From IMG/VR virus record IMGVR_UViG_3300030503_000128, positions 1-46,977 of that record: a stretch of DNA of 46,977 nt. One strand, written 5' to 3'. Below are positions 1 to 46,977 of the stretch, piece after piece (the stretch's first letter is position 1; each line of letters begins with the position of its first letter). This stretch comes from a virus. The notes beneath the pieces are model-generated. The model did no database searches. It was not told where the DNA came from and saw only the letters and a program-made list of their open reading frames with translations. Made by a program: the position numbers and the translations under genes.

Positions 1-166
1 CGTCGGCGTCGTCGGCGTCGGCGTAGGCGGCGGCGGCGTCGGCGGCGGCGGCACTTGCTGCGGCGGCGGCGGCGGCGGCGGCGTCGGCGGCGTAGGCGTA
101 GGCGTCGGCGGCGGCGGCGGCGGCGTCGGCGGCGTAGGCGTAGGCGTCGGCGGCGGCTGTCGACCT
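1..166. repeat. GGC/GTC/GTA trinucleotide repeat tract at the left window end
   Basis: Almost every triplet is GGC, GTC or GTA on the plus strand, read as GCC, GAC or TAC (Ala, Asp, Tyr) on the minus strand. Inside it a 42-base unit is tandemly repeated: the block starting at 83 recurs at 125, a period of 14 codons. The tract lies wholly inside the alanine-rich gene, and all length changes in units of three keep the frame. Bases 1-72 match the last 72 bases of the window at 69 of 72 positions. Confidence 0.95.
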
Positions 167-607
167 AGCATGTTGCGCTGCTTCCTTGCTGCCTTCCTGT
201 TCACAACGAACCGCTGCCGCTTCGAGTTTATCCGCGTGCGCGCTATTGCGCTTTTTGGCGATGCGCAATGCACGCGGGACGATCTGACGTATCGTCTGCT
301 CGACGACGATACGCACAAATAATGCTTGATCGATGCTATCTGAGCCGAGCTGTGCGATCGCCAGCTTGCGCAGTCCCGACGTTCGGGCAGCATCGCTGCT
401 CCATTGTGCGTCGTTAATGCGTATCTTGTACCTACGCACCGCCGACCCGACGCACGACGGTTGATCGGAATGTGGCAAACCCATGGCATAGCACACCGCC
501 GCCTCGACGCACATACCGCCGAGCTTGGGCTGGCCGAGCCCCTTGACGAGTCCGGCATCGACCGTGTCCAGAACGCGGCGGGCGAGTGTTTCATTCAATT
601 CTTGCAT
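1..607 (-). CDS. Alanine-rich trinucleotide-repeat phage protein, N-terminal part (gene continues across the contig junction)
   Basis: The ATG is at 607-605 and the minus frame stays open to base 1. It begins MQELNETLARRVLDTVDAG, contains GMCVEAAVCYAMGLPH and LRKLAIAQLGSDSIDQ, and from about residue 147 becomes a low-complexity run of Ala with Asp and Tyr (ADAYAYAADAAAAA type). Joined to 46977-46655 in the same codon phase it makes 310 codons including the stop, or 24 fewer if the 72-base end overlap is collapsed. I recall similar unnamed phage and bacterial proteins: a conserved N-terminal domain, an Ala/Asp/Tyr linker and a C-terminus like ELKSPGCAFLYLTETE. Function is unknown. The start has an ACGGACACGCC leader like the AAGGAnnnnGCC sites of neighbours. 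It lies downstream of the zinc protein and polymerase in the leftward replication block. Confidence 0.85.
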   Translation of the reverse strand, partial: MQELNETLARRVLDTVDAGLVKGLGQPKLGGMCVEAAVCYAMGLPHSDQPSCVGSAVRRYKIRINDAQWSSDAARTSGLRKLAIAQLGSDSIDQALFVRIVVEQTIRQIVPRALRIAKKRNSAHADKLEAAAVRCEQEGSKEAAQHARSTAAADAYAYAADAAAAAADAYAYAADAAAAAAAAASAAAADAAAAYADADDAD

Positions 608-668: not shown

Positions 669-932
669 TTATCGCAAACTATTTACCAATACGCGACGAT
701 ACGTACCGGGCGCTCCTACGAACTCTCCGCACAGCGGGCACTCCAAACAGTCATGAAAATCGTTGCAATCGTCGCACCAGTGACCTGAAACACCGTCCGC
801 GTGCACGATCCACGCAGCACCTTGTGACCACGCACCGCAATCAGGGCAAAGTAATAAATCGTCGGTCGATGACGGCGGCGCCGGTGCGAAACTGTTGCAG
901 TTGTCCAGCAACTGCTTAAGTGTTGTGATCAT
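669..932 (-). CDS. Small zinc-ribbon protein
   Basis: 87 residues from ATG 932-930, beginning MITTLKQLLDNCNSFAP. It carries CPDCG near the middle and then a dense cysteine cluster in the second half (CDDCNDFHDCLECPLCGE), typical of one or two zinc-binding ribbons. The ATG shares one base with the polymerase stop (TGATG), so the two are probably translationally coupled; an upstream extension inside the polymerase gene exists but lacks support. Function is not known. Position directly after the polymerase suggests a replication or nucleic-acid accessory role, which is inference only. Confidence 0.75.
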   Translation of the reverse strand: MITTLKQLLDNCNSFAPAPPSSTDDLLLCPDCGAWSQGAAWIVHADGVSGHWCDDCNDFHDCLECPLCGEFVGAPGTYRRVLVNSLR

Positions 933-2896
933 CAGTCCTTGCCCCACCGGTCGGACACGGCACCATCGGCGTCCAGCGGCAAGCCTGGCGCCCACGTCGG
1001 CGCGATGCGCATGCGGGCCAGCAGCTGCTCTTTGCGTTGCTCCGCGCGCTCGCGCGGCACCTCAAGGATCGCCTCGTCGTAGACGCGGTGCACGATCTGC
1101 TCGATCGGTGCGACGTCCTTGAGAATCTCCCAAAAGAAATCGCGCGCGAGCCCTTGCGTGAGGTTGTTGCTTAGCACCTTGCGGTCCAAATGCTCGAAAT
1201 ACCCCTCCGGTTTGCGGTACATCGCCACCGGCACCGTCGCGCCCGGCTCCATCATCAACTGCGCGTCGTGGTAGCTGATATCGCGCCCGGATGGCAGGCA
1301 CATGCGCAGCGCCATGCCTTCGCGTACGAACGTGATCTTGCTGCAGCCGCCGCGGCCGATCGGTACGTCGACCGCCTTGCCAGGCGCATCAAGCGCGATC
1401 ATCGCGGCGTACTCCAGCATCGCCCACCAGCGCTCGAACGCCGGCCGCGCCGCACGCCAAGCGTCGACGCTATCAATAGCTGCATCTTCGGTAATGGCCA
1501 CACCGTAGTTACCCGCACCGGCAACCACCGCGCCGGCGCCGCCGCCGTACTGGCCGAGCAGAACGATCACTTTGCCGACTTGTCGCATGTCTTTGGTCAC
1601 TTCGTCGTAAGACACGCCGTATATGCCCATCGCCGACACTTTGTACACGTCGATACCGGCCTCGTAGGCGGCCAGCAGCTCTTCATCGTTGGCCAGCCAC
1701 GGCGCCATGCGCGCTTCGATGCCCGACAGGTCGGCGGCGATCAGCGTGTGCCAGAGCGACGTGGCACAGAACAACTGGCGCTGCGCGTCAGCCATCGCGG
1801 CCAGCGCCGGGCCGACGTCGGGCTGCGACAAATACACCTTGTCGCGTGCCTTGATGGCGGCCATGATCTTTTCACAATCCTCGCGCGACTTGCCCGGGCG
1901 CGGCCGGGCGACGTTGAGCAGCTGCACGTCACCGCAACCCATTGCCGTGTCGCGACCGGTCAGCGCGCCATGGAATACGATGGCATGCGTCATCCGGCCA
2001 TCGACGTGCGCACGCAGGATCGCACCGTGCTTTTTAGGCGCGCGCGAGGCGTCCAGGCGCAGGTTAAGGATCTCGCGCAGCTCGGCGGTCACCGTGTCTT
2101 TACCCAACAACGTTTTCAGCGACTCGCGCCCGGCGTCGGTCAGCTCCGACCCCATGTCGCTCGCCAGATCCTTGATCTTTTCTATCTCGCTGGCCGCCAT
2201 CACGGCGCCGTCGGTCAGCACAGTGATCTTGTAGTCGATCAGCGCCTGCTCGTACTCGGCCAGGTCGGCCATGGCTTGCGCCGCCTGTACGTCCACACCC
2301 AGCCCGCGCTCGTTGATTTGCATGTCGAGCACGTAGAACGCCTGCTCACGCGCCGGCAGCGGCCTTGTGGCGTTCCATAGCCCGATCATCGCGTCAACGT
2401 CCGTGATGTTGTAGGCGCTCTGCACCGCAAACTCGTTCGGGTGCGTCTTGGGTGTCCACTCGGGATGTGTGGCCAGCTGCATCATCACCTTACCGCCCTC
2501 GGTATCCTTGCGAATGGGCAGGTTCGCTGCCTCGCAAGCGCGTTCGAGACTACCGGGCAGGCCGTTGTACCGGGCGCGCGCGGCGCTGCAGCGCATCTGC
2601 TCGCGTGCCATCGGCGTGATTGCTTTGTAGTCACGCACAATGCAATGGTTCCAGATGGCGTAATCGAACGCCGCGTTGTGGGCGACGATTGGCGTGCGAT
2701 TGGCCACGTGATGAATGACGGCGCCGGGCAACGGGTCGCCGATCAGCCAGAGCTGCGTTTCGCTTTCGCCAGGTAGGCGATAGGCGAAACTGTTCGCCCG
2801 CGTTGACGGATCGCGCAGGTAGCGCCCGAGCCCATGCAGCTTCAATTCGCAGTTCGACGTCGTCTCGAAGTCAAGAAATAGCTCGTTGTGGGTCAT
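932..2896 (-). CDS. Family A DNA polymerase with 3'-5' exonuclease domain
   Basis: 654 residues. The N-terminal DEDDy-type exonuclease shows motif I D9-x-E11 (FLDFETTS), motif II N74AAFD78 and motif III Y162NITD166. The C-terminal PolA palm and fingers show motif A at D389 (DLSGIEARMAP), motif B R438, K442 and Y450-G451, and motif C around VYDE at 605-608, where the usual His of HDE is Tyr. It should be the phage replicative polymerase. Its ATG overlaps the helicase stop by four bases (ATGA, 2893-2896) and its stop overlaps the next gene, so helicase, polymerase and zinc protein form a tight translational unit. Length fits phage exo-polA enzymes lacking the 5' nuclease domain. Confidence 0.95.
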   Translation of the reverse strand: MTHNELFLDFETTSNCELKLHGLGRYLRDPSTRANSFAYRLPGESETQLWLIGDPLPGAVIHHVANRTPIVAHNAAFDYAIWNHCIVRDYKAITPMAREQMRCSAARARYNGLPGSLERACEAANLPIRKDTEGGKVMMQLATHPEWTPKTHPNEFAVQSAYNITDVDAMIGLWNATRPLPAREQAFYVLDMQINERGLGVDVQAAQAMADLAEYEQALIDYKITVLTDGAVMAASEIEKIKDLASDMGSELTDAGRESLKTLLGKDTVTAELREILNLRLDASRAPKKHGAILRAHVDGRMTHAIVFHGALTGRDTAMGCGDVQLLNVARPRPGKSREDCEKIMAAIKARDKVYLSQPDVGPALAAMADAQRQLFCATSLWHTLIAADLSGIEARMAPWLANDEELLAAYEAGIDVYKVSAMGIYGVSYDEVTKDMRQVGKVIVLLGQYGGGAGAVVAGAGNYGVAITEDAAIDSVDAWRAARPAFERWWAMLEYAAMIALDAPGKAVDVPIGRGGCSKITFVREGMALRMCLPSGRDISYHDAQLMMEPGATVPVAMYRKPEGYFEHLDRKVLSNNLTQGLARDFFWEILKDVAPIEQIVHRVYDEAILEVPRERAEQRKEQLLARMRIAPTWAPGLPLDADGAVSDRWGKD

Positions 2897-22125: not shown

Positions 22126-22773
22126 TTACTGCTGCGCGAACGGGTTGGCCGTCTGCGACGTCGCGGGTTGCTCGGTCTTGACGCCCGCAAACGGGTTCGA
22201 CGGCTGCGACGTTGCGGGCTGTTCGGTCTTGACGCCCTCAAACGGGTTCAACGTCGACGTGCCCGCCGCGGCATACTTTTGGAACTCGTTGGCGGTCACG
22301 CCATCACCGATGCTAAGGCGCTCACCCGGGCCGGCGTCCATCACACCGGCTAGATTGAACGAGACGCCCTTGCGGTTGGTCGCCTGATGCGCCCACGGGA
22401 ACACCGTCAGCGCGCCACGCACCCGGCGGCCGGGGTAGAACGTCGCCTTGATCGCATCCGCGCCGACAACAGGCTGTCCGGCCGTGTCGACCAACGTGGG
22501 AGCAAACTGCGTCGAGGCGCGCACCAGTAGCCAATCCTGCGGCACGCCCGGGATCGGTTTCTTGACTTGCGAGTGCACATTGACGCCGATTTCCAGACCC
22601 TGCAGATTGCCACCAGGTGCGACCGACTGGACGAGCGCCTGCAGGTCCTGCGTCGCGGATGGCGGGAACGCCAGCTGCACAAAATAGGTCGCTGGCTTGG
22701 TGGGACTCAGACGGTTGACGCGCGGCGCGTCGAGAGAGTTATAGAGCAAAATGCCGATGTGGTCGGTAAGCAT
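22126..22773 (-). CDS. Single-stranded DNA-binding protein (DUF2815-like)
   Basis: 215 residues from ATG 22773, which has GAGGCGTCAAAC before it; an upstream TTG start is not needed. The core contains ATYFVQLAFPPSATQDLQAL, the segment DAIKATFYPGRRVRGALTVFP and KGVSFNLAGVMDAGPGERL, the pattern I associate with DUF2815-type phage SSBs. The C-terminus has two 17-residue repeats beginning NPFEGVKTEQPATSQ and NPFAGVKTEQPATSQ, ending NPFAQQ, a flexible tail that could recruit partners. The repeats are visible in DNA with a 51-base period. Confidence 0.72.
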   Translation of the reverse strand: MLTDHIGILLYNSLDAPRVNRLSPTKPATYFVQLAFPPSATQDLQALVQSVAPGGNLQGLEIGVNVHSQVKKPIPGVPQDWLLVRASTQFAPTLVDTAGQPVVGADAIKATFYPGRRVRGALTVFPWAHQATNRKGVSFNLAGVMDAGPGERLSIGDGVTANEFQKYAAAGTSTLNPFEGVKTEQPATSQPSNPFAGVKTEQPATSQTANPFAQQ

Positions 22774-41954: not shown

Positions 41955-42386
41955 ATGGCAGGCACACTTACCACCGCTAATGCCGTCATGGCCGCGACCG
42001 TCGAGGCGCTATACCCCTCGGCCACCAGCCTGCAGGGTTGGGCGGCCGATGACGCGTGGGATCCTGAGGCCGTCGAGAACGGCGAATACAGCTATGGCAT
42101 CGACGGCAAGCTGTCGGCCGGCTTCGTGTTCAACGAGGTTCCACTGGCCATCATGCTGCAGGCGGATTCTGCGTCCCTCGTCACGTTCGAGAACGTGTGG
42201 GGCTACGAGTTCACCAACCGCACGAAGCTCGGATGGGACATCGTCATCACAGCGACTGCGCTGGGTCGGCGTTACGAATACAAGGGCGGCTTCATGCGCT
42301 CCTACAAGGCACCGGCCGGCAAAAAGACTCTGCAGCCGGGCGTCGCCAACTTCGTGTTCGCCCAACTGCAGATTTCCAACCTCTAA
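41955..42386 (+). CDS. Tail tube protein (DUF3277)
   Basis: 143 residues. Start AGTLTTANAVMAATV, then GFVFNEVPLAIMLQADSASL, WDIVITATALGRRYEYKGGF and PGVANFVFAQLQISNL, the DUF3277 tube pattern. It forms the inner tail tube under the sheath. Ends four bases before the Nudix gene. Confidence 0.88.
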   Translation: MAGTLTTANAVMAATVEALYPSATSLQGWAADDAWDPEAVENGEYSYGIDGKLSAGFVFNEVPLAIMLQADSASLVTFENVWGYEFTNRTKLGWDIVITATALGRRYEYKGGFMRSYKAPAGKKTLQPGVANFVFAQLQISNL

Positions 42387-46075: not shown

Positions 46076-46648
46076 CTATTTGGTGCCGACGATGGCATTC
46101 ACCTCGGCGACCAGGCTGACCGGCACCATCGCGCGCACCGGCGGATCAAACGCCGGGAACCATTTCTTGCCCGCCGGCCACGTCTCTTGCAGCTGTTTGT
46201 CGGTCGTGACACTGGCCAGCAGCGTGATCAACTTGCTACGCAAAGCCCGGCGCTCGTTTTCAAGTTCAATGTCGGTCGTTGCTAGCGCCTTGGCGCGGTC
46301 ATACAGCGGGTGTGCCTTGTCGACCGTCACGTCGGGCTTGTGCAACGGCCAGGGCTGTGACTTGGTCATCTTGAAACGTGCTGACGCCTCGGGTGGTGTG
46401 TCCAGGCCAAGCGTCGAGTAGCGGTTACGGTGCGTGAAGTCCGGGTGTTTGATAGACAATTCGCTGTAATAGTTCACCCATCCATCGGGTAGTTTGGCGA
46501 CCAGCGCGGCGACCTTGCCATACTCACGCGTGTAGAGCGCGTCGGCTAGCTTGGTGCGCGCCGCAGCAAGTGCCGCCGTCCGTTTGGCAAACGTGTCCTT
46601 GACGCATTTGTCGATGATGTCTTGCCGCATTTCGTTCGTGATGCGCAT
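46076..46648 (-). CDS. Nmad5-like (nucleotide-modification-associated domain) protein
   Basis: 190 residues. The start RITNEMRQDIIDKCVKDTFAKR, then LADALYTREYGKVAALVAKLPDGW, and a later strand region with KMTKSQPWPLHKP match my recollection of the Nmad5 family, phage proteins found near DNA-modification genes. Biochemical role is unknown. The C-terminus is helical with basic residues (LENERRALRSKLITLL). It begins six bases after the alanine-repeat gene stop, so the two are co-translated, and the genome also has an adenine methyltransferase. Confidence 0.55.
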   Translation of the reverse strand: MRITNEMRQDIIDKCVKDTFAKRTAALAAARTKLADALYTREYGKVAALVAKLPDGWVNYYSELSIKHPDFTHRNRYSTLGLDTPPEASARFKMTKSQPWPLHKPDVTVDKAHPLYDRAKALATTDIELENERRALRSKLITLLASVTTDKQLQETWPAGKKWFPAFDPPVRAMVPVSLVAEVNAIVGTK

Positions 46649-46654
46649 GGCGTG

Positions 46655-46977
<323 letters not shown>

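Follow-up and report, generated by a model that had tools for sequence, protein, structure and literature searches.

A codon repeat that differs in length among members of a widespread phage protein family

Introduction

The window analysed here is the whole of a 46,977-nucleotide viral contig (IMG/VR record IMGVR_UViG_3300030503_000128), and its first bases fall inside a stretch that reads, on the reverse strand, almost entirely as GCC, GAC and TAC codons. An array of this kind raises the question of which protein carries it, how its length is changed, and whether the change is of use to the phage. A preliminary description of the DNA had proposed a protein with unique ends and a hypervariable Ala/Asp/Tyr spacer.

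Results

The contig opens within one gene

DNA similarity and the gene order primase-helicase-DNA polymerase identified the window as a Naesvirus/Bcep781-like myophage contig. The Burkholderia phages Bcep43 and Bcep781 and the XapPhi Xanthomonas phages showed ~67% DNA identity to its first 8 kb, with 53% of that segment aligned. By the DNA-identity test, the window would represent a lineage that is related to Naesvirus and belongs to a different genus.

The repeat gene lies on the minus strand, where it starts with the ATG at 607-605 and leaves the contig at position 1 inside the repeat; the remainder extends from 46977 to the stop at 46655 (Table 1). The two contig ends are two halves of one gene. 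As the repeat continues in frame into the matching tail at the far end, the window is a circular or circularly permuted genome that was opened within this gene. Direct joining of the ends preserves the frame (1 + 2 bases). The ends have a stretch of ~70 nt in common, with few differences, among them Ser/Trp and Tyr/Asp codons, and no exact overlap between them was found; the shared stretch thus represents either a longer unit present twice or one copy in two (population) variants. On the minus strand, the repeat interrupts an early operon of primase, helicase, DNA polymerase, repeat gene and Nmad5, with the small ORF lying between the polymerase and the repeat gene.

At the contig ends, runs made only of GCC, GAC and TAC (reverse strand, any frame) were up to 67, 32 and 17 codons long, and the longest run was five codons both in the window interior and in 20 shuffles. 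Tandem Repeats Finder reported a 42-nt (14-codon) period at 1-157, with 3.8 copies and 82% matches, and the repeat unit reads ADAYAYAADAAAAA. These two analyses confirmed the near-exclusive GCC/GAC/TAC composition and the 14-codon unit of the earlier account. The repeat it had placed at 1-166 is real, but that interval contains only half of the array, the remaining ~75 codons being at the opposite contig end. One interruption was observed on each side of the array (GCA GCA AGT and GCA GCA TGG), and past the array come the unique C-terminal tail, EFLNLACSIALAALIELKSPGCAFLYLTETE, and the stop codon. Elsewhere in the window, a 51-nt tandem repeat was located at 22135-22253 (2.3 copies, 86% matches).

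Table 1. Coordinates of the repeat gene and its neighbours in the window
Feature	Position	Strand	Evidence
Conserved N-terminal domain, 149 aa from ATG 607-605	161..607	-	pattern GMCVEAAVC...LPH.D.P.CV...R....ND..W invariant
Ala/Asp/Tyr codon repeat, first visible half, 42-nt unit	1..160	-	repeat and codon-run analysis
Codon repeat, second visible half (~75 codons)	46751..46977	-	at far contig end
Conserved C-terminal tail, 31 aa and stop, ALIELKSPGC.FLYL	46655..46750	-	tail profile match, E=1.8e-17
Nmad5 (PF18757), next gene downstream	46076..46648	-	profile match, 9.6e-24; 6 nt past repeat-gene stop
Small ORF between DNA polymerase and repeat gene	669..995	-	no family match
DNA polymerase, upstream in same early operon	932..2896	-	annotation of neighbours

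The repeat gene belongs to a phage protein family

A search with the N-domain only detected 147 coding stretches in IMG/VR, 13 in GTDB bacterial genomes and one in the cultured phage Cr30; 80 of the IMG/VR stretches were kept. Numbers with the prefix L denote individual loci. The family architecture comprises an N-domain of ~140 aa and a tail of ~35 aa, which usually flank an Ala-X codon repeat. Invariant residues of the N-domain include a Gly, Cys33, Glu35, Cys39, His46, Asp48, Pro50, Cys52, Arg58 and Asn65. The window gene carries the invariant patterns G.MCVEAAVC...H.D.P.CV and LND..W, and its closest relatives, L002 and L003, are 78% identical to it. The C-terminal tail profile, in which the window's own tail is one of 30 rows and is 29-65% identical to the others, matched the window at 46658-46756(-) with E=1.8e-17, in frame past the repeat. 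The proposal of one protein with unique ends was thus borne out, and by these shared sequence features the window gene can be placed in a widespread, so far unnamed phage family. The dN/dS of the N-domain was ~0.13 against both L002 and L004, a rough value given that dS is saturated, which suggests that the domain is under purifying selection.

Searches of the repeat gene against Pfam, PHROGs, NCBIfam, PADLOC and PDB sequences gave no convincing match, and no known defence or anti-defence family matched it in PADLOC, Pfam or NCBIfam. Literature on a family with this N-domain, repeat and tail was not found under the terms used. The plasmids searched contained no member of the phage family. A core bacterial gene was considered and rejected, as only one of 398 genomes of the Devosia phylum carried the gene, and that copy was the Devosia prophage itself.

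The hypothetical protein AGS80886.1 of Caulobacter phage Cr30, a large phage unrelated to the window phage, is a true homologue with the N-domain, the Ala/Asp/Tyr repeat and the tail. A weaker superfamily with a G.C..E...SD.P.C...ND motif includes proteins of gut phage MT835534, Nonomuraea, Methylobacterium and a Streptomyces plasmid. It shares the N-terminal motif with the repeat family, and the gut-phage member and the viral loci L105-L107 are also Ala-rich at their C-termini. However, identity is only ~30%, the Nonomuraea, Methylobacterium and Streptomyces members are without a pure repeat, and the C-terminal tail of the family is not recognisable there. The distant N-domain homologue on Streptomyces plasmid pFRL5 (L110, 2986-3525), which has no repeat, was located among phosphate-transporter, ArsR-like, phosphatase and oxidoreductase genes, a neighbourhood that resembles an arsenic-resistance cluster.

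Predicted structure of the conserved core

Structure prediction of the 222-aa protein of L002, a complete gene with a short insert, gave a single all-helical protein (pLDDT 87, pTM 0.87). For L004, which has a longer insert, the core and tail were predicted mostly at pLDDT 80-98 and the repeat, residues 161-206, at ~35-58 (pTM 0.79). The models are best read as a single helical core built from the N-domain and the tail, out of which the repeat extends between two helices as a loosely constrained, mostly helical excursion. The earlier picture of a spacer between two folded ends is not upheld by these models, where the repeat loops out of the core. Foldseek returned no match for the repeat protein against the PDB at E<=0.001. 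One structural match was obtained among viral models, a protein of 236 aa with 45% identity, which is probably the Cr30 homologue.

Composition and homogenisation of the insert

Insert statistics were derived from 55 complete distinct genes. Ala made up 63% of the spacer, and the non-Ala residues were 25% Tyr, 22% Asp and 12% Ser; Pro accounted for 2 of the 1254 non-Ala residues, and Gln and Met were absent. Tyr lies two base changes from GCC yet is common, whereas Pro lies one change away yet is rare, which indicates that the composition is filtered at the protein level. The third-base entropy was 0.52 bits in the spacer as compared to 1.93 in the N-domain, and the Ala-codon entropy was 0.24 as compared to 1.84. 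The dominant spacer Ala codon was GCC in 40 genes and GCA, GCG or GCT in five genes each. Such codon uniformity within genes, with codon differences between genes, is the mark to be expected of repeated local duplication and homogenisation.

The best DNA period was a multiple of three in all 55 complete genes, with a range of 6-87 nt. A phase-variable locus that is switched on and off was rejected on this ground, as no frame shift would occur. In L140 and L141 (match from 2501) the Ala-rich insert is replaced by (Gly-Val/Phe)n, written in GGC GTT/TTT or GGC GTC/TTC codons, and the spacers of L142 and L094 are short and without repeats. Because Gly-Val/Phe or nearly absent inserts occur, the insert is tolerated rather than essential.

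Length differences and assembly breaks

Lengths were found to differ among relatives and also between loci with identical flanks; one and the same length throughout related phages, the outcome that would have spoken against the preliminary description, was not observed. L050 and L052 share 5.0 kb of identical flank and differ solely by one 78-nt in-frame block in the repeat; L004 and L005 share 3.9 kb of identical flank and differ solely by one 96-nt in-frame block, again in the repeat. The length variants all come from short-read metagenome assemblies, in which collapse of a codon repeat also yields in-frame differences, and these two cases are only suggestive of reversible length change within a clonal population. 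Length change in whole codons, as had been predicted from the window, was seen between relatives and in these two sets of loci with 100% identical flanks, and the data give good support to slippage by multiples of three. In the pairs L013/L015 and L076/L079, the N-domains are 96-98% identical and the arrays have been remade in codon and residue order and in composition. At least L013 and L015 sit in otherwise unrelated flanking DNA, which indicates that the gene also moves between phages. Equal repeat lengths were observed in five of the six near-identical loci L004-L009 and within the pairs L002/L003, L031/L047, L042/L045 and L136/L137; hence, the rate of length change is not extreme.

The contigs of 18 of the 80 relatives run off inside the repeat gene, and in four of these 18 the tail was found at the opposite end of the same contig. 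Contig ends within 450 nt of the N-domain were counted 20 times downstream and three times upstream (p=2.4e-4). The assembly break seen in the window thus recurs at this gene in relatives, but since any repeat longer than the reads breaks an assembly, such breaks are weak evidence for the population length variation that had been read from them. The L072 contig (42111 bases) has the C-terminal tail at both ends (46-150 and 42014-42109), which points to a circular genome whose ends, inside the repeat gene, were left unmerged.

Gene neighbourhood

The 102 proteins flanking the relatives include repressors, CII-like regulators, Erf/Sak4/RecE recombination genes, helicases and DNA methylases. No tail family was present among the 25 most frequent families of this set, and terminase gave one match. 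The copy in the Devosia prophage is located between a CI-like repressor and exonuclease/RecT/NinB genes. With neighbours of replication, recombination, repressor and methylase type, the repeat protein does not qualify as a conventional host-range protein, and the context and mobility of the gene point to an early accessory role in host takeover or counter-defence. The proposal that spacer variation is a way to vary a phage protein went further than these results support as far as adaptive variation is concerned; the neighbours are not tail or receptor genes.

An all-against-all blastp comparison revealed no constant partner gene outside near-identical loci, with few recurrent families, each at no more than five loci. 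Nmad5, a DNA-modification enzyme in whose gene Tmn-escape mutations arise (PMC11846954), was rejected as a functional partner, as it stands beside the gene in one of 50 records, the window itself. The sole match of the window's Nmad5 in the annotated phage collection was in Bordetella phage PY223 (36% identity). DUF6948 and its (GY/GD)n neighbour were likewise rejected (3 of 50 records).

A second codon-repeat protein, with (Gly-Tyr/Gly-Asp)n or Ser/Asp/Tyr-Gly repeats, was observed at L007:5360-5705 (also in L005, L006, L008 and L009) and at L012:4949-5170. In the L007 phage it directly follows the DUF6948 gene, and the L012 contig also has DUF6948. It resembles the repeat gene of the same phage in its dipeptide codon repeat with Tyr/Asp alternation, but is a separate gene with Gly in place of Ala.

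Discussion

The explanation that we favour, with moderate confidence, is that the window carries one gene of a widespread, unnamed family of early accessory phage proteins, in which the array changes length by slippage or unequal recombination. Slippage during replication, or unequal recombination among the direct repeats, would lengthen or shorten the array, and with a repeat period that is always a multiple of three the frame would not be lost. Selection would then hold the frame and a small-residue, proline-free composition and would hardly control length, so that the insert may be regarded as a tolerated, tunable protrusion. The core, with its conserved Cys, Glu, His and Asp residues, most probably works in the cytoplasm during early infection, in host takeover or counter-defence, given that the gene sits among repressor, recombination, replication and methylase genes and that highly similar copies occur in phages with little else in common. 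The repeat itself could be incidental to this function. A more specific reading, for which we see a small chance, is that of a new, widespread host-takeover or counter-defence family whose conserved catalytic or metal-binding helical core displays an Ala-X/Gly-X insert that is rapidly lengthened, shortened and swapped by slippage; as part of the same doubtful reading, such an insert would diversify length by a route other than phase variation or diversity-generating retroelements.

Other explanations share part of this evidence. The locus may be an adaptive contingency locus, in which selection favours differences in spacer length or sequence between phages, for instance in escaping or matching a host factor, and maintains a high rate of slippage for that purpose. 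Both ends do stay conserved where arrays have been remade, even in genes that are 96-98% identical, the choice of residues is not mutationally neutral and insert lengths span a wide range. We nevertheless consider this unlikely: the gene has no receptor or tail context and no phenotype, some members carry Gly-Val/Phe repeats in place of the insert or have hardly any insert left, the same length is found again in several near-identical loci, and neutral slippage under loose constraint accounts for the same data. We give an equally low weight to an assembly artefact, in which limits of read length and k-mer collapse at a low-complexity tract would imitate variation, with little of it truly present within a population. 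Every variant locus is a metagenome contig, repeats exceeding the read length break any assembly, and the 78- and 96-nt blocks lie wholly within repetitive DNA. However, collapse cannot produce the differences in codon and residue order, beyond copy number, that separate L013 from L015 and L076 from L079, and the length spread across the family is wide.

The notion of a DNA-level element, such as a packaging or replication site or a recombination hot spot that is translated by chance, draws on the position of a G+C-rich tandem repeat beside replication genes and on the many contigs that terminate at the repeat. It is very improbable, as similar inserts are encoded by GCA, GCG, GCT, GCC and GGC with the frame always kept. 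Codons vary while the kind of insert and the frame are retained, so what is conserved is the protein and not a DNA word; the breaks, moreover, fall in the repeats of unrelated phages. Length-variable, stalk-like spacers are familiar in phage fibres, and a virion or tail-associated protein with a variable stalk would fit the array by this analogy. We regard such a protein as scarcely credible, because the 102 flanking proteins belong to replication, recombination, regulation and methylation, with the single terminase match, and because of the position of the Devosia copy among repressor and recombination genes. Adjacency to structural genes was seen neither in the window nor in the relatives nor in Devosia.

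The family has consequences for phage annotation. It is unnamed, is absent from the four profile libraries and from the collection of solved structures that were searched, and is carried by unrelated phages and by prophages of several phyla. Short-read assemblies break at the gene, with the result that phage genomes containing it are described as linear fragments in which it is cut short or overlooked. Were the variation in length adaptive, the array would offer a simple mutational means of diversifying a phage protein inside the cell.

Comparison with known systems

The locus resembles the simple-sequence contingency loci of bacteria in that an intragenic tandem repeat is present and a change in copy number is the step of variation. 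It differs from them in that all periods are multiples of three, so that only length and composition are changed and there is no on/off switch. A survey of low-complexity regions (LCRs) in prokaryotes and phages reported Ala to be among the most enriched residues of phage LCRs and GCC to be a favoured LCR codon, named slippage and recombination as origins, and found aromatic residues to be strongly under-represented (PMC6821194). The repeat family shares the Ala richness and the use of GCC with the surveyed regions, but differs in having Tyr as its commonest non-Ala residue, and here the LCR is an insert within one conserved, widespread phage family.
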